Assembly (NCBI GenBank): GCA_012837895.1
Contig: DUQH01000021.1
Span: 1-57,282 of the forward strand
DNA: 57,282 nt
Direction: 5' to 3'
Origin: Candidatus Fermentithermobacillaceae bacterium
GTDB lineage: Bacteria; Bacillota; Sulfobacillia; Fermentithermobacillales; Fermentithermobacillaceae
The position numbers were made by a program, and so were the translations under genes. Below, piece after piece: positions 874 to 49,638 of this stretch (its first letter is position 1; each line of letters opens with the position of its first letter). The notes beneath the pieces were generated by a model that saw nothing but the letters and a program-made list of their open reading frames with translations, ran no database searches and was not told the DNA's origin.

Positions 874-1256
874 AGGTGCGGGAGGCTGGGCCGCAATACA
901 CAGGCCGTATAGCAGAGGACCAGGCATGTGACTACTTGCGTCAGAATGATTACCGCATTATCTGCCGTAACTACCGTTCCCGCTACGGGGAAATCGACAT
1001 AGTCGCGGCGTGTGGATCTGTGCTTGTGTTTGCGGAAGTGCGTTACCGGAGGCGCCATTCCCTGGTTCCACCTCAAGAGTCGGTTAGCAGGGCTAAAACG
1101 CAGAGGTTGAAACTTACCATACGCGACTTCCTGTCCAAACACAGTGGGATTGTTGAGCAATATGACAGCATCCGGGTTGATCTAGTGTGCGTTTCCGGCA
1201 CCGGAGATCCAGCCTCGTTGGAGTTCAGGACGATCAAAGGGATCATCGAATTCTGA
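870..1256 (+). CDS. yraN: YraN family (UPF0102) endonuclease-like protein
   Basis: A 128-residue protein of normal family length. It has the UPF0102 core: an N-terminal helix containing GRIAEDQACDYL, the central GEIDIVA motif (residues about 49-55) and the strand VFAEVRYRR. Together these make the restriction-endonuclease-like E...D...E-x-R/K arrangement. The family resembles Holliday-junction resolvases by fold, but its cellular function is not established. It overlaps the comM stop by four bases. yraN-comM(yifB)-dprA-topA is a common Firmicutes order, here interrupted after yraN by a block on the other strand. Confidence 0.9.
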   Translation: MKVREAGPQYTGRIAEDQACDYLRQNDYRIICRNYRSRYGEIDIVAACGSVLVFAEVRYRRRHSLVPPQESVSRAKTQRLKLTIRDFLSKHSGIVEQYDSIRVDLVCVSGTGDPASLEFRTIKGIIEF

Positions 1257-1270
1257 AGTCTGGTCTAAGA

Positions 1271-2503
1271 TTACAGATCGCTGGCTTTGCACACCTTGTT
1301 ACCGCCGTCTTTCTTGGCGTGGTACATGGCCCAGTCAGCTAGCCGGATAAGGTCCCTGCCTACGTCTGAATCGTTAGGGTAGGCAGATATGCCGACGCTT
1401 AATCCTATATTAAAAGATTTACCTTCGTAGTACACGGGTGCGCTGCAAACGGCAATGAGACGCTTGCCCAAGGCTTCTGCAGTTTCAATGTCAGCTGAGG
1501 GACAAATGATAATGAACTCGTCTCCCCCGTACCGGATGATCACATCTTCCTGCCTGGTCACGGAAAACAGGGCCCTGGTCACGTGAATCAACACTGTATC
1601 TCCAGCTTCATGCCCAAATTGATCGTTAATCTTCTTGAGGCCATCTAAGTCAATGAACACGAATGAACATGGGGTTTGCTCAGCCACCAGCTTTGGGAAC
1701 TCCCGGTGCAACCAGTCTTCAAGGTACCGGTAGTTGAACGCCTTGGTCAACGGATCTGTGCGGGATTCCTCTGTTCTCATATCCAGTTCGCTCTGGAACC
1801 GCATCAGGTAAAATACTGCAACCATATAGGCAATGCTTATAAGTAGCCCGATCTTTCCAATGAAAGAGCAAAGCAGCGCCCCTGTCAGGGAGAGGAGGTA
1901 CATAAAAGGGATAAGGCTGCGCCGGCTGGTAAAGGCCATCCGTCCGAAGCAGACCTGCCACTTTTCTTGACGTTCTTTGGATACTGCTATGCTTACCAGG
2001 GTGATATTGCACAGGTCAAATATGATCATCGCAACTACGAGGCCGATTATCTCATAGGTGATGGTGTAGGGTGTAATACCCCTAACACACTGAATTGTGA
2101 TGTCAGCCAGTCCCAGGCTGATTGCAAGCTGCCCGGCGTTAAACATGGCGGCAAGCCAGGGTTTACTGAGGAAAACGGCTTGAGAAAGCACGCTGGGTAC
2201 CCCTGTGAGGATTGCCAGGGGGAGGCCGTAACAGTAAAGGCCGGGGAAAAGAATGGGCCAGGTTGCATGGATATGAACTTTAGGTGCGAGTCTTATGGGG
2301 GTGTTGAAGCTTATGATGCCAAGGATGGCAAAAATAGCAGTGGTATAAGGGTCCGGCAATTCGTAGTTTAGAAGTTCAAATGCTGAAAAGACGAATCCCA
2401 CACCTGCCACTAACCCCATGTATGCGACTAGCCGTTTCCGCTCAGCACCTTTGAGCTTGGATGAAATCCAGCGGTTAGTGTAGCCGGCCTCAGGCGCGTT
2501 CAC
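1271..2503 (-). CDS. Membrane diguanylate cyclase (multi-TM sensor plus GGDEF)
   Basis: A 410-residue protein. Residues about 25-235 form a strongly hydrophobic region with about six to eight membrane segments, which I cannot assign to a named sensor family. Residues about 245-405 are a GGDEF domain with DPLT near 250, FIDLDGLKKIND near 283 and the catalytic GGDEF at 326-330. The allosteric I-site RxxD is present as RQED at 317-320, five residues before GGDEF. The enzyme should therefore make c-di-GMP from two GTP and be product-inhibited. The start is GTG at 2503, with a GGGGGT ribosome site about seven bases upstream. It may feed the riboswitch at 15.7 kb and the PilZ protein at 34.8 kb; that link is inference. 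Confidence 0.9.
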   Translation of the reverse strand: MNAPEAGYTNRWISSKLKGAERKRLVAYMGLVAGVGFVFSAFELLNYELPDPYTTAIFAILGIISFNTPIRLAPKVHIHATWPILFPGLYCYGLPLAILTGVPSVLSQAVFLSKPWLAAMFNAGQLAISLGLADITIQCVRGITPYTITYEIIGLVVAMIIFDLCNITLVSIAVSKERQEKWQVCFGRMAFTSRRSLIPFMYLLSLTGALLCSFIGKIGLLISIAYMVAVFYLMRFQSELDMRTEESRTDPLTKAFNYRYLEDWLHREFPKLVAEQTPCSFVFIDLDGLKKINDQFGHEAGDTVLIHVTRALFSVTRQEDVIIRYGGDEFIIICPSADIETAEALGKRLIAVCSAPVYYEGKSFNIGLSVGISAYPNDSDVGRDLIRLADWAMYHAKKDGGNKVCKASDL

Positions 2504-2597
2504 GGGTCATACCCCCAATTAACTCAGGCAAACGCCAGGTTAAGGAATCATGGAAAGACCTGACATATATTCGCATTGGTCTGTTATTTGATCCAAG

Positions 2598-2626
2598 ATT
2601 ATACATGGTTCGGGTGGTTGAGTCCA
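2598..2626 (-). promoter_or_regulatory. Candidate SigA-type promoter for the diguanylate cyclase gene
   Basis: On the minus strand there is a perfect -10 TATAAT (2603-2598), a 17-base spacer and a -35 TGGACT (2626-2621). It leaves a leader of roughly 85-90 bases before the GTG start at 2503. I see no known riboswitch in that leader. Confidence 0.5.
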
Positions 2627-2650
2627 GTAGGCTTTGCCGTGTGCAACCAC

Positions 2651-3418
2651 TTACCTGGCGAAAAACACCATTTCGGTTGAACCAGCATCTATCGGGCAAT
2701 CTTGATGCAGCGATCCTTGTTCATGAAACAGTTCAAATCCTGACATTTCAAGTATCAGCCGGAGTTCCCTGGGGAAATAGTAGGTCATGGTACTTGTGTA
2801 AGCCGCTTCTCTCAGCAGGTTATCTACTTCATCGTACTCTTCAAGGTGGACCGTATTGTATTCCAGCTGATTAGCAAAGTCATATGTGGTTGTACACCTG
2901 TGAATGAGTTTTGTCCCTGTGAGTGGGTGCTCAAATGCTGCGATCCTTTCAACACGGTTTATATCAACCATATACGGAATATCAGGAATGCCGTTGTCCA
3001 GGATAAACACCCCCGTTGGTTTAAGGTGGCGTTTGACATTGCGCAATGCTCTTATGAGCAAGCCGGGCTCCAAAAAGTGATTGAGCATGTTGCAGGGGGC
3101 GATTATGAGGTCGAATCTCTTTCCTAGTTGAAACTTGGTAACATCTTGTCTCACAATGGTCGCTTTCGATCTCACAGCTTCGTCTTCCAAAGCCAATCTG
3201 ACTTGGCAACGGGCTATCATATCGTCTGAACTGTCTATCCCGGTAACGCGGAAACCGGCTCTTGCCAAAGGTATTAGTATTCTGCCAGTGCCTGACCCCA
3301 GTTCCAAAACGTCAGGGCCGAACTTACGGGCGAACTCCACATATGCATCTACGTCTGTCAAGCCGGCGTGAAGAATGTCGTAGAACTCAGTAAAGAAACC
3401 GCTGTACATACTTTGCAT
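2651..3418 (-). CDS. Class I SAM-dependent methyltransferase
   Basis: About 255 residues. The SAM-binding signature DVLELGSGTGRI (motif I, GxGxG type) lies near residue 40, followed by RVTGIDSSDDMI with the acidic residue that contacts the ribose of SAM. The fold matches small-molecule methyltransferases of the Methyltransf_25/11 type; the substrate cannot be read from the sequence. I prefer ATG at 3418 because the site AGGGGTGAT sits eight bases upstream; a GTG one codon earlier (3421) is also possible. It lies between rnhB and the cyclase gene on the same strand, with no obvious functional link to either. Confidence 0.8.
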   Translation of the reverse strand: MQSMYSGFFTEFYDILHAGLTDVDAYVEFARKFGPDVLELGSGTGRILIPLARAGFRVTGIDSSDDMIARCQVRLALEDEAVRSKATIVRQDVTKFQLGKRFDLIIAPCNMLNHFLEPGLLIRALRNVKRHLKPTGVFILDNGIPDIPYMVDINRVERIAAFEHPLTGTKLIHRCTTTYDFANQLEYNTVHLEEYDEVDNLLREAAYTSTMTYYFPRELRLILEMSGFELFHEQGSLHQDCPIDAGSTEMVFFAR

Positions 3419-3451
3419 CACATCATCACCCCTGTAGGAAGATAGCAGCCT

Positions 3452-4135
3452 TCAGCCCGTGACATGTCTCCTGGTGTTCAGAGGACTACCATCAGCCAGT
3501 AAGCTCCGGACAGGCTCAAACGAACGCCTGTGGATAGGGCACGGCCCTCTTTGCGTGAGGCGTTCCACATGTTCCTTGGTGCAATACCCCTTATGGTTGG
3601 CAAAACCGTATCCAGGGTATAACCTCTCAAATTCTTCCATCATCTTGTCGCGTACCACTTTTGCAACGATAGAGGCACATGCCACAGATGCTACCCTGTT
3701 GTCAGCTTTTATCAGTGCTTCCTGGCTTATCTTCAGATCGGGAATAGGGTAGCCGTCTACAACAACCAGATCAGGCTCGTACCCCCTGAATGCAAGCATT
3801 TTGATGGCAGCCTTCATTGCTGAAAAGGTAGCAGCTACAATGCCGAATTCATCGATAAACCGCGCAGACCTGATACCCACGCCAACAGCAATGCCGGTTT
3901 CGAGAATATAATCAAAGATGCGTTCACGCGTCTTTTGAGTTAGCTTCTTACTGTCGTTAAGCTTAGGGATTCTTGGATGTGCAGGCAGGATTACCGCCGC
4001 CGCTACTAAAGGGCCTGCCACAGGCCCTCTACCTGCTTCATCTACGCCTGCTATGTACTGTGCCCTGGGACGCCTAAGCTCTTCCCACTCGTACAACTTG
4101 TTGACCCTTGCTGCTTCCGCTCTACGTGACTTCAA
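3452..4135 (-). CDS. rnhB: Ribonuclease HII
   Basis: A 227-residue protein with the RNase HII signature GVDEAGRGPVAGP near residue 29, which supplies two catalytic acidic residues. SKKL follows, and the further conserved acids are in VVDGYP and in KADNRV...SIVAKVVRD. It cleaves the RNA strand of RNA-DNA hybrids, including single misincorporated ribonucleotides, in the cytoplasm. The start is TTG at 4135, with GAGGAGTGT about seven bases upstream. In many Clostridia rnhB sits directly upstream of yraN on the same strand; here it is on the opposite strand inside a block that splits yraN from dprA, which suggests a local inversion. Confidence 0.95.
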   Translation of the reverse strand: MKSRRAEAARVNKLYEWEELRRPRAQYIAGVDEAGRGPVAGPLVAAAVILPAHPRIPKLNDSKKLTQKTRERIFDYILETGIAVGVGIRSARFIDEFGIVAATFSAMKAAIKMLAFRGYEPDLVVVDGYPIPDLKISQEALIKADNRVASVACASIVAKVVRDKMMEEFERLYPGYGFANHKGYCTKEHVERLTQRGPCPIHRRSFEPVRSLLADGSPLNTRRHVTG

Positions 4136-4222
4136 TTGTTACACTCCTCTGCCACGCCTCCTACTACTGAATTCGCCGTAGAAAGGTTAACTCCTTTTCA
4201 AGGGGGATGCTGGAGGGTAGTG

Positions 4223-5464
4223 CTATTCAGGTGTAGGGGGGCTGTCTGCATAACCTGAAGTAAACACGAAGATTTTCACGTCGTAGTTTGCCACTGTGTG
4301 CTTGAACTTTGACGGCCAATCAAACTGTTTTAGCTCAGGCCAGGTCTTGAAATGACCGCGGACTGTCCTTCCAAGACCTAATATGTCAGACTCCATGGCA
4401 GTGAGTTTGATAAACACATCGTTTAGAAGAGATTCCAGTGTTTGCTCAGCTTGCTTGACGATTTCGCCATGGTAACCAGGAGTGAGTTCTATCTCCCTGG
4501 ATGTAGTCTCTTCCATGGAAGCGGTAGCCCTTACCCTGAAGGTGACACTTACCTGGTTATCTTCTATTTTGGTCTTCCTAATGACAGAACAATGCTGGAA
4601 CACCAAAGTTGCCCTTCTTTCCGGATTCCGGGGCATGATGATGTCAATGAACCCCCTGGCAAAATCACCGCTCATGATGTTAACGGCCATGGTTTCTCTT
4701 GTGTCCAAGGTGTCTATCATTTTCATTCTTGGGCCGTCTTTCTTGAAAACAGCCGAACCGGCAAGCTCAATTATGCTCCCAGGGGTGTCTGCCGTATCTG
4801 CTGGCGGCTGTTTCTCGCCTGAACCACCTGACCCATCAGGACTATCTGCGCCTTCCGGCTGTTCGGCAACGGGTTCCACAGGCGAGGCGAGGGTCAGGTA
4901 TGGTGTCCACGGCTCGGTTTGTTCTGTGCCATAGGCTACCAGGAAGTCGTAAATTGAGGTAAACGGGCAGATGCCCAGCTCCTGTTTGCAGCTGTCAATA
5001 AGCTTAACCAGGTAATCCGAGGGTTCACTTTCTTCGGGCACGCTGAAATTCCTGATAAAATGAGAGGCGCTGCCTTTGCATACTGCCACTAATGTGTTCT
5101 GCCTGAATTCAAGGTTTCGCGAAAACACGTCAAGTATTATACCCGCATCTTCCCGGGCCAGTTCTTCGCCGAGTATCACCACTTGTGTGTGGGCCGTGGT
5201 GACCCTTCTCGAAGTCATAGTGGTCATCTGCCCGAGGCCATCTAGCAAACTTTCGCATTCAACAGCTATTATGAAAGATGTTGAGGTGCCCCCGCCTTCT
5301 AGAGGGCTCCCCCCCTGCATCTTCCTGGGAAGCGCTATGGACGCTGTAGCCAGGAGTTGTTTCTCTCTACCTTTATCCACCCCTAGAATGGTCACGAAAG
5401 ACAACTGCTCGAGTTCGTGCCTTCCGTAGCAGCCGGACAAGTACGTAGCTAGGAAGGCTAGCAA
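4223..5464 (-). CDS. gerC: Spore germination lipoprotein, Ger(x)C family (C subunit of germinant receptor)
   Basis: About 413 residues from the first conventional codon (TTG 5464). The family N-terminus (LSGCYGRHELEQLSFV, then LGVDKG) is clear, with lipobox LSGC giving a lipid-anchored Cys. From TTG 5464 only eight hydrophobic residues precede the lipobox and no basic residues do. In the same frame upstream lies HKLTRIALLASLLAFLA, a proper signal-peptide n- and h-region. The true start is therefore probably an unusual codon, such as ATT at 5482 or ATA at 5515; the latter follows a GAGAGGAAAAG ribosome site. GerC subunits anchor in the spore inner membrane and work with GerA and GerB in nutrient sensing. 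Last gene of gerA-gerB-gerC. Confidence 0.9.
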   Translation of the reverse strand: MLAFLATYLSGCYGRHELEQLSFVTILGVDKGREKQLLATASIALPRKMQGGSPLEGGGTSTSFIIAVECESLLDGLGQMTTMTSRRVTTAHTQVVILGEELAREDAGIILDVFSRNLEFRQNTLVAVCKGSASHFIRNFSVPEESEPSDYLVKLIDSCKQELGICPFTSIYDFLVAYGTEQTEPWTPYLTLASPVEPVAEQPEGADSPDGSGGSGEKQPPADTADTPGSIIELAGSAVFKKDGPRMKMIDTLDTRETMAVNIMSGDFARGFIDIIMPRNPERRATLVFQHCSVIRKTKIEDNQVSVTFRVRATASMEETTSREIELTPGYHGEIVKQAEQTLESLLNDVFIKLTAMESDILGLGRTVRGHFKTWPELKQFDWPSKFKHTVANYDVKIFVFTSGYADSPPTPE

Positions 5465-5511
5465 TGACGCTAGCAGCGCAATACGGGTAAGTTTGTGGTC
5501 AGTAAACGTGC

Positions 5512-6768
5512 TTATGTCTTTTCCTCTCCTTGCATCTCAGCCTGTTCGCCGCCAGTGTTTGCAGGTGGGTTGTGTTTCGTATCTTCGGAATATCCCGGGC
5601 TTTGCCTCAACTTGTCAAGGAACTGTGACACACGGGCAGCTTCTAGTTGTGTGCCCCGGACATGCGCAATTAAGTACAGCACCGGGCCTAGTATTACGCT
5701 GAATGAGCCCATGTAAGTGTATACTGTAGAAAGAAACCTGCCGGCGGCGTGGATCGAGCTTGGCAAAGCTGCAATGCCGAAGGTCAGCAACCCTACCCCC
5801 GGGACCAGGGGCCTGTAGGTACGGGTGTTCATGAGTTGGCACAATAACACCAGGGTCACCATATAACACGCGCTGGCGTGAATTGCGGACGCGAAGAACC
5901 AGGTGAAAGTGAACAGGGCTTCGATCTTTTGGAGGAAGCGGCCCAAATAGACCGTCCGGGCAATAATCCCCAATGAAATCACGTGCCTGGTGTTTTCAGG
6001 ATAGGGCAGGATGGCTGCTACCAATACGACAGAAGCGACCATGAAAAGGGTAGCTACTGATAGGCCGGTAAAAGCCGCTCTTGGGAGCTGATCAGGGTTC
6101 CTAAGGTACGACTTGATAATGGCTGTGAACGAAATCCCGCCGAATAAGCCTACCTGCACTAAAGACTCCCTGAGTATTACAGGAATGCCCATGCCAAACA
6201 CCGGGTACAGGTAGCGGATGTCAAACAACCTGTAAGAGCCCAGGGCGACAACTATGATCGTAAGGGCGATTGCAGGATAGAAGAAGGTGGCAGCCCTCGC
6301 TACAGACTCCAGTCCCAGCCATGCCGCGTATAAGGCAGAAGCGATTACAATGACTATGAGTATTTCAATAGGGAATTCGGGCAACAGGCCGATTACGGCG
6401 CCCCCGGCGAATGCCCGCACGCTGTACGAGGTTACCAGCACAAACATGGTGGTGATTGCCAGGGTTGTAAGGTCCCCGAGAACCCTGCCCAGGGTAAGAC
6501 GTACAGAAGGTACAAATCCCAAATTGCCAGTTGCCTTGGACCATCCTAGCCATCCCCACAGCCCGGCTGATGCAAGCAAAGCAGAAACCAATATGGTAAG
6601 CCATGCACCCGTTCCTATCCTCTGGGTAATGTAGGAGGGCAGGGTCAGAAATACTTTGGTGGCGATCAAGAAACCCAGGATTACTGTGAACTGGTTGGAA
6701 TCAAGGTGGCCCAGCTTTACCACGTCAAATTGGGCTGCCTGGATTTCATGTCGGCCGGGCGAGCCCAT
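5512..6768 (-). CDS. gerB: Spore germination permease-like protein, GerB family
   Basis: A 418-residue integral membrane protein with about ten hydrophobic segments, matching the GerAB/APC transporter-like family. The typical opening is present (QFTVILGFLIATKVFLTLPS, residues about 26-45). It ends in a short charged cytoplasmic tail. In germinant receptors the B subunit binds nutrients such as amino acids. Its ATG overlaps the gerA stop (TAATG), so the two are coupled, and its own stop lies within the 5' region of gerC. The germinant cannot be predicted from this sequence. Confidence 0.92.
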   Translation of the reverse strand: MGSPGRHEIQAAQFDVVKLGHLDSNQFTVILGFLIATKVFLTLPSYITQRIGTGAWLTILVSALLASAGLWGWLGWSKATGNLGFVPSVRLTLGRVLGDLTTLAITTMFVLVTSYSVRAFAGGAVIGLLPEFPIEILIVIVIASALYAAWLGLESVARAATFFYPAIALTIIVVALGSYRLFDIRYLYPVFGMGIPVILRESLVQVGLFGGISFTAIIKSYLRNPDQLPRAAFTGLSVATLFMVASVVLVAAILPYPENTRHVISLGIIARTVYLGRFLQKIEALFTFTWFFASAIHASACYMVTLVLLCQLMNTRTYRPLVPGVGLLTFGIAALPSSIHAAGRFLSTVYTYMGSFSVILGPVLYLIAHVRGTQLEAARVSQFLDKLRQSPGYSEDTKHNPPANTGGEQAEMQGEEKT

Positions 6769-45181: not shown

Positions 45182-46273
45182 ATGGCTTTTTCTCCTTTGT
45201 TCAAGCGAAGAAAGACCACACCTGTGCGGTGTGGCAGTGTTGCTATCGGCGGGAATGCGCCTGTGTCAATCCAAACCATGACCAAGTGTGATACCAGGGA
45301 CATAGACGCTGTAGTGAGGGAGATCCGCCAGGCAGTCTCCCACGGAGCTGACATAGTAAGGGTAGCTGTGCCTGATAAGGAGGCAGCCAGGGCACTTGAA
45401 GCCATCAAGAAACAAGTGCAGTGCCCGGTTGTTGCTGATATCCATTTTGATTACAAGCTGGCCCTTCTGTCGCTTGAAGCAGGAGCTGACAAGGTCAGGG
45501 TTAACCCTGGCAACCTTGGGGGTAAAGAGCGCCTGATCACAGTAGCTGGAATGGCCCGGGCGAAGGGGGCTGCCATCCGGCTGGGCATTAACTCAGGCTC
45601 CTTAGAAAAAGACATCCTCGAGGCTTACGGTGCCCCGACACCTGAGGCTATGGTAGAAAGCGCCAGGCGGCACCTGGCGTACCTTGAAGATGCAGGTGTG
45701 GAGGACATTGTCATCTCGCTGAAATCATCCAGTGCAAAGGATACTATAGGCGCCTATATGCTGATGGGCCAGTTTACCAATTGGCCGTTTCACATAGGCA
45801 TTACAGAAGCAGGACCTGGACTTCACGGGAGGATCAAGTCGGCTGCCGGGATAGGCACATTACTTGCCTTAGGCCTCGGAGACACTGTAAGGGTGTCTTT
45901 GACCGGCCCTTCGTATGAAGAAGTTGAAGTGGCCAAGCAGATCCTCCAGTCAGTGGGCATACGTGTATTTGGCCCTGATATGATTTCTTGCCCTACATGT
46001 GGGCGCACCCAGGTGGACCTAGCCTCCATTGCCAGGCAAGTATCAGATGCGCTTAAGGGCATGACAGTGCCTCTAAAGGTTGCTGTCATGGGCTGCCCTG
46101 TTAACGGGCCTGGGGAAGCAAAGGAAGCTGATATCGGCGTTGCCTGTGGCCGCGATGGAGGGATACTGTTTTCCCGCGGCAAAGTATTAGGCAGGGTAGC
46201 AAGTGAAGAGATCGTGCCTGCACTGGTAAGACTTGCACGAGAATATGCAGAGTCTCCGGAGGGAAAAAATTGA
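45182..46273 (+). CDS. ispG: 4-hydroxy-3-methylbut-2-enyl diphosphate synthase (flavodoxin/ferredoxin)
   Basis: About 363 residues from ATG 45182 (AGGTGATGAT upstream). An N-terminal TIM barrel (VPVSIQTM-like region PVSIQTMTKCDTRD, then VADIHFDYKLAL) is followed by the cluster-binding domain. Its [4Fe-4S] ligands lie in SCPTCGRTQVDL and MGCPVNGPGEAKEADIG (three Cys and one Glu). It carries out the penultimate MEP-pathway step. Clustering with dxr, uppS and cdsA links isoprenoid and envelope-lipid synthesis. Confidence 0.96.
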   Translation: MAFSPLFKRRKTTPVRCGSVAIGGNAPVSIQTMTKCDTRDIDAVVREIRQAVSHGADIVRVAVPDKEAARALEAIKKQVQCPVVADIHFDYKLALLSLEAGADKVRVNPGNLGGKERLITVAGMARAKGAAIRLGINSGSLEKDILEAYGAPTPEAMVESARRHLAYLEDAGVEDIVISLKSSSAKDTIGAYMLMGQFTNWPFHIGITEAGPGLHGRIKSAAGIGTLLALGLGDTVRVSLTGPSYEEVEVAKQILQSVGIRVFGPDMISCPTCGRTQVDLASIARQVSDALKGMTVPLKVAVMGCPVNGPGEAKEADIGVACGRDGGILFSRGKVLGRVASEEIVPALVRLAREYAESPEGKN

Positions 46274-49200
46274 GTGTGGTTACAGTTACACCGTCTTGCG
46301 ATGATTTCCGCCTCACCAAGATTGCCAAGGTCCTGGGGATAGAAGAAGATCCCATCCTGGAGTGCCTGAAGGTCGTTTCCATTGGCGTAAACACAGATGA
46401 AGGTGCATGGTCTGTATGCCTTGACGTAGTTGATCCCAGGTCGTGGGCAAGACACTGTGCATCTTTGTCGCGGACAGAGGTTGAGTTGCGGTTTGCCGAG
46501 ATCGGCCAGGCACTGAGAAACAGGATCCCTGAACTTGAAACAGTCCGCTGGGGGCTCCCTGAGGAATATCAAAACAAGCTGGGGAACGGGCCTAATAGCG
46601 GGGATAAGGCGCCACAAGACGGGGTGCTGCTCGGAAGGCCAATCAGGACCCAGCCAATACCTATACGGGAAGTGACCGGCGGGGAGCGGGAAAGTGTTAC
46701 CCTGGCAGGACAGGTGGTGGAGGTAACATGGAGGCAGGCCCAGTCCGGGGACATCTACGGTGCTTTCGTGCTCACCGACAACGAAGACTCAATAACTGTC
46801 CGGGTTTTCCCCAAAGAAGGCAAAGTCGACGAGATTGAGGAAGGTGTATGGGTGATTGCCAGGGGACGTGCCAGGCTCGACCGCCTTGATTCAGAGCCGG
46901 TGCTTATATGCAATGACTTGTGCTTGTTTGAACCCAAGGTGAGGCATGATACTGCCCCTGAAAAACGGGTTGAACTTCACTTGCACACCAAAATGAGCGC
47001 GCTTGACTGTGTGCTGGAACTGGACGAAGCGATCGCACTGGCGTCTGCGTGGGGGCATCCTGCAGTTGCGATTACAGACCATGGAGTGGTTCAAGCTTTT
47101 CCTGAGGCCTACAGGCTGGGAAAAAAATACGGGATGAAGATTATATACGGGATTGAAGCGTACCTTGTAGAAGATGATGAGAAAGGACAAGCATTCCATA
47201 TAATACTCCTGGCAAAGGACAAACAAGGCTTGAGAAACCTTTATGAGCTTGTTACCTTGTCGCACCTTGACCATTTTTACAGGACTCCCAGGATACCCAG
47301 GGCAAAACTGGCAGCCAGGAGGGAAGGGCTGTTAGTAGGCTCGGCTTGTGAAGCAGGGGAAGTATACCGGGCTGTGCTTGCAGGTTTGGACGATGAACAA
47401 CTCAAGCGAGTAGCATCTTTTTATGATTACCTGGAAATACAGCCGTTAAGCAATAACCAGTTTCTCATAAACAGCGGTGAAGTGTCAGGTGAAGAAGACC
47501 TGATTAGAATAAACACCAGGATATACGAACTAAGCAAATCCTTAGGCATACCATGTGTGGCCACAAGCGACGTCCATTACCTAAACCCTGAAGATGAAAT
47601 ATTCAGGACCCTGCTATTGTCGGGGAAGGGCATGAACGATAGCGGCGAGAAGCCAGCTCCTTTGTATTTCCGCACCACAGACGAATTGCTGGAGGAAGTA
47701 TCGGCTTACCTGGGTGCAGAAGCGGCAAGGGAAGTGGTGGTAACCAACACCCGGGCTATTGCAGCTGCTGTTGAAGACTTGGCTCCCATCCCTGAGGGTT
47801 CGTTTTTCCCCCATCTTCCAAACGCCGATGAAATCTTAAGGGAACTAACTGAACAGGGGGCAAACAGGCTGTTCGGGATGGAATGGCCTGAAATCGTCCG
47901 CCAAAGGATAGATAAGGAGCTATCAGCGATTATCGGAGGCAATTTTTCTTCGCTGTACCTGATAGCTATCAGGATGGTGGAAAAATCGCTGGAAGACGGG
48001 TACTTGGTGGGGTCCCGGGGTTCAGTAGGTTCGTCCCTTGTAGCTATGCTTACAGGCATAACTGAAGTCAATCCGTTGCCTCCCCACTATGTTTGCCTCA
48101 AGTGTCACTGGAACAAGTTCGTCCTGGATGGCTCCTATGGTTCAGGGTTTGACTTACCCGCTATGCAATGCCCTGAATGCGGCAGCGAGCTCAGGCGTGA
48201 CGGGCAGAATATCCCGTTTGAAACGTTTATGGGGTTTACAGGCGAGAAAGTGCCTGACATCGACCTCAATTTTTCCGGGGAAGAGCAAGGTAAGATATTC
48301 AAGTTCGCTTCAACTCTTCTGGGCAAGCAGAATGTGTACAGGGCGGGCACTATCGCTACAGTTGCCAAGAAGACGGCCTTTGGGTTTGTGAAGCACTATG
48401 AAGAATCCAGAGGCAAGGGGTTCAGGCGGGCTGAAGTAACCAGGCTGGCCAAGGGGATCGAGGGCGTGAAACGTACAACCGGGCAACACCCGGGAGGAGT
48501 AATGGTGATCCCCAAGGGCATGGATGTACTGGATTTTACGCCTCTCCAATACCCGGCAGATGATCGGAGCTCAGGCGCAATAACCACTCACTTTGACTAT
48601 GATTCACTGTCAGGGCATCTGGTCAAAGTGGATATCCTTGGCCATGATGATCCTACGGTGCTCAAGATCCTCCATGAGCTTACAGGTGTTGACCCTACAA
48701 AGATACCCATGGATGATCCTGAGACCTTAAAGCTTTTCTCTGGCGAAAACCCTGACAGCACTGTGGGAATACCTGAGTTCGGGACAAGGTTTGTAAGGAA
48801 TATGCTATGTGAGACTAGACCTAAGTGTTTTGCCGATTTTGTGAGGATTTCAGGGCTATCCCACGGCACTGATGTGTGGGCGAACAACGCCAGGGATATT
48901 ATCAGAGACGGCATTGCCACCCTGGACCAGGTTATCGCCTCACGCGAAGACATATACCTGTACCTGATGGAGAAGGGGATGGACCCGGCTTCCGCTTTTG
49001 GCATAGCTGAAAAGGTGAGAAAAGGGCGGCCCCTGTCTGATGAAGATGTAAGCCAGATGAGAGCACTGTCAGTGCCAGATTGGTATATAGAATCCTGCAA
49101 GAAAATCACGTACTTGTTTCCGAAAGCTCATGCAGCTGCTTATGTAACCAACTCTTTCCGGATTGCCTATTTCAAAGTGCACCATCCCCTGGCCTTCTAT

Positions 49201-49638
49201 TCCACGTACTTTTCGTTCACGGGGAATGCGCTTACAACAGAGTTTATGTACCTGGAACCAACTGAGTGGCGGGGGTACATTAACCAGGTGAACTCTAATC
49301 CGGCGTCAACTGCAAGAGAGCAGGATATTGCGGCTGCACTTGAGCTGGCGTTGGAGATGGCAGAAAGAGGGTTTTCCTTCGGACGGCACCACTTGTACCT
49401 GTCCCATGCGACCAGGTACGTGCCTGAAGGCGATTGCCTCATTCCGCCGTTTACATCGATACCGGGGCTTGGCAGCCGGGCTGCGGCTGCAATTGTGAAG
49501 GCGCGGCAACAAGGGGAGTTTGAATCGGTCGAAGACTTCAGGCGACGGACTGGTCTTGGCAAGAAGCTGTGCGAAGTGTTGAGGGATCACGGAGTGTTTG
49601 AAGGCTTGCCTGAAACTGCGCAGCTGGCGCTGTTCTAA
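46270..49638 (+). CDS. polC: DNA polymerase III subunit alpha PolC, lacking the DnaQ exonuclease domain
   Basis: A 1122-residue protein; typical PolC is about 1430. In order: a shortened N-terminal domain (1-130), an OB fold (about 140-222), an uninterrupted PHP domain (about 232-445), a zinc-binding region (CLKC...CPEC, 609-637), the palm with catalytic aspartates in PDIDLNF (D663, D665) and VDILGHDD (D788), fingers, and a C-terminal helix-hairpin-helix ending in the clamp-binding QLALF. B. subtilis PolC has about 190 exonuclease residues inserted in PHP after the G-x-E strand; here GIEAYLVEDD runs directly into AFHIILLAKD. All nine PHP metal residues appear present: H237, H239, D246, H271, E296, H310, C360, D434, H436. 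TTG start overlaps the ispG stop. Confidence 0.95.
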   Translation: MSVVTVTPSCDDFRLTKIAKVLGIEEDPILECLKVVSIGVNTDEGAWSVCLDVVDPRSWARHCASLSRTEVELRFAEIGQALRNRIPELETVRWGLPEEYQNKLGNGPNSGDKAPQDGVLLGRPIRTQPIPIREVTGGERESVTLAGQVVEVTWRQAQSGDIYGAFVLTDNEDSITVRVFPKEGKVDEIEEGVWVIARGRARLDRLDSEPVLICNDLCLFEPKVRHDTAPEKRVELHLHTKMSALDCVLELDEAIALASAWGHPAVAITDHGVVQAFPEAYRLGKKYGMKIIYGIEAYLVEDDEKGQAFHIILLAKDKQGLRNLYELVTLSHLDHFYRTPRIPRAKLAARREGLLVGSACEAGEVYRAVLAGLDDEQLKRVASFYDYLEIQPLSNNQFLINSGEVSGEEDLIRINTRIYELSKSLGIPCVATSDVHYLNPEDEIFRTLLLSGKGMNDSGEKPAPLYFRTTDELLEEVSAYLGAEAAREVVVTNTRAIAAAVEDLAPIPEGSFFPHLPNADEILRELTEQGANRLFGMEWPEIVRQRIDKELSAIIGGNFSSLYLIAIRMVEKSLEDGYLVGSRGSVGSSLVAMLTGITEVNPLPPHYVCLKCHWNKFVLDGSYGSGFDLPAMQCPECGSELRRDGQNIPFETFMGFTGEKVPDIDLNFSGEEQGKIFKFASTLLGKQNVYRAGTIATVAKKTAFGFVKHYEESRGKGFRRAEVTRLAKGIEGVKRTTGQHPGGVMVIPKGMDVLDFTPLQYPADDRSSGAITTHFDYDSLSGHLVKVDILGHDDPTVLKILHELTGVDPTKIPMDDPETLKLFSGENPDSTVGIPEFGTRFVRNMLCETRPKCFADFVRISGLSHGTDVWANNARDIIRDGIATLDQVIASREDIYLYLMEKGMDPASAFGIAEKVRKGRPLSDEDVSQMRALSVPDWYIESCKKITYLFPKAHAAAYVTNSFRIAYFKVHHPLAFYSTYFSFTGNALTTEFMYLEPTEWRGYINQVNSNPASTAREQDIAAALELALEMAERGFSFGRHHLYLSHATRYVPEGDCLIPPFTSIPGLGSRAAAAIVKARQQGEFESVEDFRRRTGLGKKLCEVLRDHGVFEGLPETAQLALF

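Follow-up and report, generated by a model that had tools for sequence, protein, structure and literature searches.

Polymerases of the PolC type that lack the DnaQ-like (DEDDh) exonuclease and keep a conserved PHP site have been known as a kind since 2013. They made up 6% of the PolCs surveyed by Timinskas et al. (2013, PMC3919608), almost all of them from Clostridia and Negativicutes, and 16% within one polymerase combination; the PHP ligands of PolC were found to be strongly conserved (PMC3919608). In DnaE1 of M. tuberculosis, the three zinc ions bound by nine such residues lie some 40 angstroms away from the polymerase site, either D23N or D226N abolishes the exonuclease activity, and the metal mutants are also destabilised (PMC5636811). 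Several DnaE polymerases have a short loop at the place where PolC bears its exonuclease (PMC5636811). A survey of 2026, in which the ligand motif of PHP exonucleases is defined as HHDHEH[C/H]DH, lists the PHP domains of both PolC and DnaE1 as candidate proofreaders (PMC12926913).

The window analysed here, a stretch of 57,282 nucleotides from an uncultured heat-loving Firmicute (assembly of 2.05 Mb in 146 contigs, 96% complete), carries the sole PolC gene of its genome. Relatives that bear names assign the organism to Candidatus Fermentithermobacillaceae. Before the gene lie ORFs read as dxr, rseP and ispG; the polC start codon, a TTG, overlaps the stop codon of ispG, and an upstream extension could add at most 21 codons. 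Its features are the following:

46270..49638, + strand: polC, PolC-type DNA polymerase III alpha subunit lacking the DEDDh insertion, 1122 aa (profile matches; architecture common to the family orthologues)
46270..46623, + strand: shortened N-terminal region, residues 1-118, predicted as a single alpha/beta domain (structure model)
46696..46935, + strand: OB-fold domain, residues 143-222 (weak Pfam PF01336 match; structure model; alignment to solved PolC)
46966..47589, + strand: PHP domain, about residues 233-440, nine intact ligands (Pfam PF02811; ligands by alignment)
47158..47196, + strand: 13-residue linker at the exonuclease insertion point, residues 297-309 (alignment of 253 PolCs)
47569..47571, + strand: codon of the PHP ligand D434 (alignment to 5lew)
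48739..48765, + strand: shortened finger loop before GIPEFGTRFVR, residues 824-832 (alignment)
49621..49635, + strand: C-terminal QLALF, sliding-clamp-binding motif (sequence; tail conservation)

The protein scores above the cut-offs of two PolC equivalog models (NF001688, 1334 bits against 873; TIGR01405, 1235 against 1043). The NCBIfam PolC models match it in two stretches, the best of which covers residues 305-1122 and starts at profile position 611, past the exonuclease part. It can be aligned to the solved Geobacillus kaustophilus PolC from residue 130 through the C-terminus, and it has the OB fold N-terminal to the PHP domain, the polymerase core, the HhH and a C-terminal clamp motif of an established type (PMC3919608). 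Structure searches with its model returned the PolC fold and added nothing further. Because the hallmark DEDDh insertion within the PHP domain is replaced by the linker, this is an exonuclease-less and not a canonical PolC; indeed, the PolC core, the absent exonuclease and the pairing of PolC with DnaE1 in one genome are those of the published variant (PMC3919608). It is best explained as a vertically inherited replicase from a lineage devoid of the insertion. The second polC against which the original prediction had guarded was not found in the genome, as the remaining two C-family matches are DnaE proteins, the dnaE products it had proposed to look for; one of them, on contig C27, passes the DnaE equivalog cut-offs.

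The continuity of the PHP domain, read by eye in the original prediction for a PolC of 1122 residues at these coordinates, is confirmed. The junction GIEAYLVEDD/EKGQAFHIILLAKD is uninterrupted, and 13 residues separate Glu296 from His310. The same interval spans 198-219 residues in PolCs that carry the exonuclease (n = 143), a domain of about 210 residues, and 12-25 residues in those that do not (n = 110), plus one case of 84 residues. We considered the latter insert (L281) as a remnant exonuclease and rejected it, since it is a low-complexity linker and not a domain. The exonuclease-less architecture was present in every full-length PolC read from the family (13) and from its sister family (3), the orthologues that share it being 59-87% identical to ours, and it is also encoded by a single-contig chromosome (G006). 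An assembly deletion, which had been a concern, is thereby excluded. The relatives that the original prediction proposed to seek by alignment are numerous, with 110 of 253 PolCs lacking the domain. Across 249 evenly sampled genomes from the phylum of one exonuclease-less relative, a hand count by match geometry, not a curated survey, gave about 95 such PolCs among about 183 PolC-bearing genomes, or roughly half.

Two side observations concern the distribution of PolC. Closely similar exonuclease-less genes were found in bins from one project labelled Firestonebacteria and FCPU426 (L050 and L053), which probably reflects misbinning. In many genomes of the class to which the window organism belongs (G017-G020, G029, G030 and others), DnaE was matched and PolC was not, so that losing PolC may have been a frequent event there.

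Two further parts of the protein are short. About 141 residues precede the OB fold, against some 235-260 usually. At the place of the paired NI and NII subdomains, the N-terminal region, roughly 100 residues shorter than usual, is predicted to form a single alpha/beta domain, and one of the two subdomains is probably missing. The finger loop before GIPEFGTRFVR had been said to be about 14 residues shorter than usual; it is short, but by 11 residues (9 against a modal 20). This 9-residue loop occurs in 16 of 16 PolCs from both families of the order, most others having 20 residues, and a loop of 10 residues is found in L120 and L150, which both carry the exonuclease. We rejected a tie between the short loop and exonuclease loss, because most exonuclease-less PolCs have a loop of normal length and two exonuclease-bearing ones have a short loop. 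As far as the alignment goes, the short loop is specific to the order and unlinked to the loss.

Alignment places the nine PHP ligands at H237, H239, D246, H271, E296, H310, C360, D434 and H436, that is HHDHEHCDH, in agreement with the motif of PHP exonucleases. All nine had been recognised from the sequence, with exact numbering for H237 and D434. The PHP blocks of the structure model mostly have pLDDT values of 91-97, with dips to 75. D246 and D434 correspond to D23 and D226 of M. tuberculosis DnaE1 (alignment to 5lew), and the loop at the exonuclease site is again DnaE-like in length. The original prediction gave Asn as the B. subtilis PolC counterpart of the Asp in ATSDVHYL; an Asn stands at this position in G. 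kaustophilus PolC (ATGNVHYL) and in nearly all sampled Bacilli. Since D434 aligns with D226, this Asn matches the D226N substitution that inactivates the mycobacterial enzyme. Poor conservation of the metal residues in relatives, another outcome that the original prediction had envisaged, is not what we see, the ligands being invariant in exonuclease-less relatives.

If the PHP domain proofreads where the DEDDh domain is absent, it should decay only in lineages that have the exonuclease. The site is intact in 110/110 exonuclease-less PolCs and in 85/143 exonuclease-bearing ones (n = 253; Fisher p = 1e-17, with kinship left out of account). By itself an intact site is weak evidence, because those 85 retain it too. 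The other 58 carry substitutions, D to N in 33 of them, and several losses of C, H and D ligands come from exonuclease-bearing PolCs of the window's own class. Resemblance to the window PolC had been one basis for choosing this sample; its evenly drawn part points in the same direction, with 68/68 sites intact against 35/44.

On a quick LG+G4 tree built from polymerase columns only, and containing some long branches, the exonuclease state switches no fewer than 17 times; supported branches force 7 of these changes, so that the pattern is not that of one clade. The PHP site decays independently 8 times, each time on exonuclease-bearing branches. Of the total length at risk, these branches contribute 41-43%, which gives p = 0.0009-0.0011 for 8 out of 8. 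An independent-pairs sign test on the same tree had too few informative pairs and low power. Parsimony left the direction of the exonuclease changes, gain or loss, undecided; the shared position of the domain and its homology would rather point to a single insertion followed by repeated loss.

The constraint extends beyond the ligands. At 50-55% polymerase identity, PHP identity is 0.565 between exonuclease-less pairs and 0.422 between exonuclease-bearing pairs, and the higher conservation persists without the junction columns and against exonuclease-bearing PolCs with an intact site. The non-ligand residues G272, Y298, A359 and E364 are conserved at 98-100% in the former and 64-83% in the latter. 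Together with the pattern of decay, these comparisons show that the integrity of the PHP domain is evolutionarily dependent on the absence of the exonuclease.

We know of no biochemical activity for the PHP domain of any PolC. Nevertheless, the sequence data lead us to regard the PolC PHP, together with that of DnaE1, as the likely replicative 3'-5' proofreader of this organism. By analogy with the DnaE1 enzymes of M. tuberculosis and Thermus, a mispaired primer end would leave the polymerase site of PolC and be cut at the PHP centre, presumably a trinuclear zinc site, and the DnaE1 PHP could assist; the catalysis, the identity of the metal and the transfer of the primer are all taken from this analogy. 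The original prediction had left the choice between PHP and a separate DnaQ protein. The first half has gained support from the sites intact in 110/110 cases, from decay confined to exonuclease-bearing PolCs and from the stronger conservation. The second half has not, as no stand-alone DnaQ or DEDDh protein was found with the RNase_T and TIGR00573 profiles in this genome or in the single-contig G006. In both, the only DEDDh domain found belongs to a DinG-type ORF, here of 918 aa with a DinG-type helicase C-terminal domain; TIGR00573 adds nothing to RNase_T.

The main alternative is that DnaE1 is the proofreading replicase and PolC does not proofread, its PHP domain being kept for pyrophosphate hydrolysis, stability or the like. 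DnaE1 of this genome does have 9/9 PHP ligands, as it does in 28 of 29 further exonuclease-less genomes read. For E. coli DnaE, a pyrophosphatase activity linked to PHP has been reported (PMC4822814), and, because mutating the metal site lowers the stability of M. tuberculosis DnaE1 (PMC5636811), a structural role could explain some of the PHP conservation. However, neither role predicts decay solely where the exonuclease is present, and the decay tolerated by exonuclease-bearing PolCs runs counter to a purely structural function. Moreover, in the one exception to the DnaE1 pattern, G136 (Limnochordales Bu89; L042, L327, L343), both DnaE PHP sites are degenerate and no DEDDh match was obtained, while the exonuclease-less PolC has an intact PHP, which makes the latter the sole candidate found. 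In sequence terms G136 is the cleanest natural case for proofreading by the PolC PHP, and we hold the DnaE1 alternative to be unlikely.

Somewhat less likely still is proofreading in trans by a DEDDh exonuclease, which here would be the domain fused to the DinG-type helicase. This domain, the only one of its kind in the genome, scores 158 bits on a profile of the PolC exonuclease domain, and free-standing proteins of 262 aa and 192 aa in the exonuclease-less genomes G135 and G139 reach similar scores. Nevertheless, a DinG-type DEDDh also accompanies exonuclease-bearing PolCs (for instance in G022 and G027), RNase_T matches nothing in the exonuclease-less genomes G007, G025, G034, G136 and many more, and the strict conservation of the PHP site would be left unexplained. 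Among 80 exonuclease-less genomes of the even sample, with classes assigned by ORF length, RNase_T found nothing in 23 and only a DinG-sized protein in 16, which favours the PHP reading, and at least one free-standing DEDDh protein in 41, which speaks against that reading; outside this sample, 12 of 18 exonuclease-less genomes had no match. The same search recovered the PolC exonuclease, with E below 1e-39, in each of four exonuclease-bearing genomes.

It is quite improbable that neither polymerase proofreads and that the lineage relies on mismatch repair instead: the failure to find a stand-alone DnaQ would fit, but two polymerases with nine ligands each, and the stronger constraint on non-ligand PHP residues, would not. 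That the missing exonuclease is an assembly or annotation artefact, conceivable for a genome in 146 contigs, is already refuted by the orthologues and by G006, and we give it practically no credence.

Some further loci deserve mention. The free-standing proteins of G135 and G139 (L195 and L196) are possibly the PolC exonuclease domain as a separate gene. In the window's genome, L209 (G000:C64:79500-86500) carries on the - strand ORFs at 1115-4231, 4235-4600 and 4572-5984: the second DnaE (1038 aa, with a PHP D to N substitution), an adjoining DUF6504 ORF and an ORF of 470 aa that has no Pfam match and is ImuB-like by eye. Together they could form a mutasome cassette of the DnaE2 type; in genomes that bear PolC, DnaE2 is reported to be rare (PMC12926913).

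On the broader scale, the balance tips slightly towards the view that the DnaQ-type domain is absent recurrently, in many Bacillota PolC lineages, and that in each of them the ancient PHP site is the irreplaceable replicative proofreader. If so, PolC would provide natural replicates of a switch between two unrelated chemistries of proofreading, with PHP decay confined to lineages that have the DnaQ-type domain. An exonuclease-less PolC with an intact PHP, in a genome with no stand-alone DEDDh protein found, allows a clean test of PolC PHP proofreading, which a second nuclease obscures in Bacillus or Clostridium. These enzymes also matter for PolC-targeted antibiotics, because views of how diverse PolC is have been formed mostly on canonical enzymes.

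In conclusion, the window PolC can be compared with three described groups. With the canonical PolCs of G. kaustophilus (3F2B) and Enterococcus faecium (9QPC) it shares the OB-PHP-polymerase-HhH core, at about 48-50% identity over aligned residues; they differ from it in having the DEDDh exonuclease (which the 3F2B crystal construct had lost by design), an Asn at the D434 position and a longer N-terminal region. With the DnaE1 polymerases of M. tuberculosis (PMC5636811) and Thermus it shares nine identical ligand types and a DnaE-length loop at the exonuclease site, but it has an OB fold N-terminal to the PHP domain and is only about 20-27% identical in structural alignments; PHP is their intrinsic proofreader, and proofreading by the window PolC is predicted. 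As a kind it belongs with the exonuclease-less PolCs of Clostridia and Negativicutes (PMC3919608), which also lack the insertion, conserve the PHP site and occur alongside DnaE1. The order of the window differs from these in its shorter N-terminal region and finger loop, and the frequency in our even sample is far above the published ones. The kind itself being published, what is new here is the comparative test over 253 PolCs, which goes beyond that work in linking the integrity of the PHP domain to the absence of the exonuclease.
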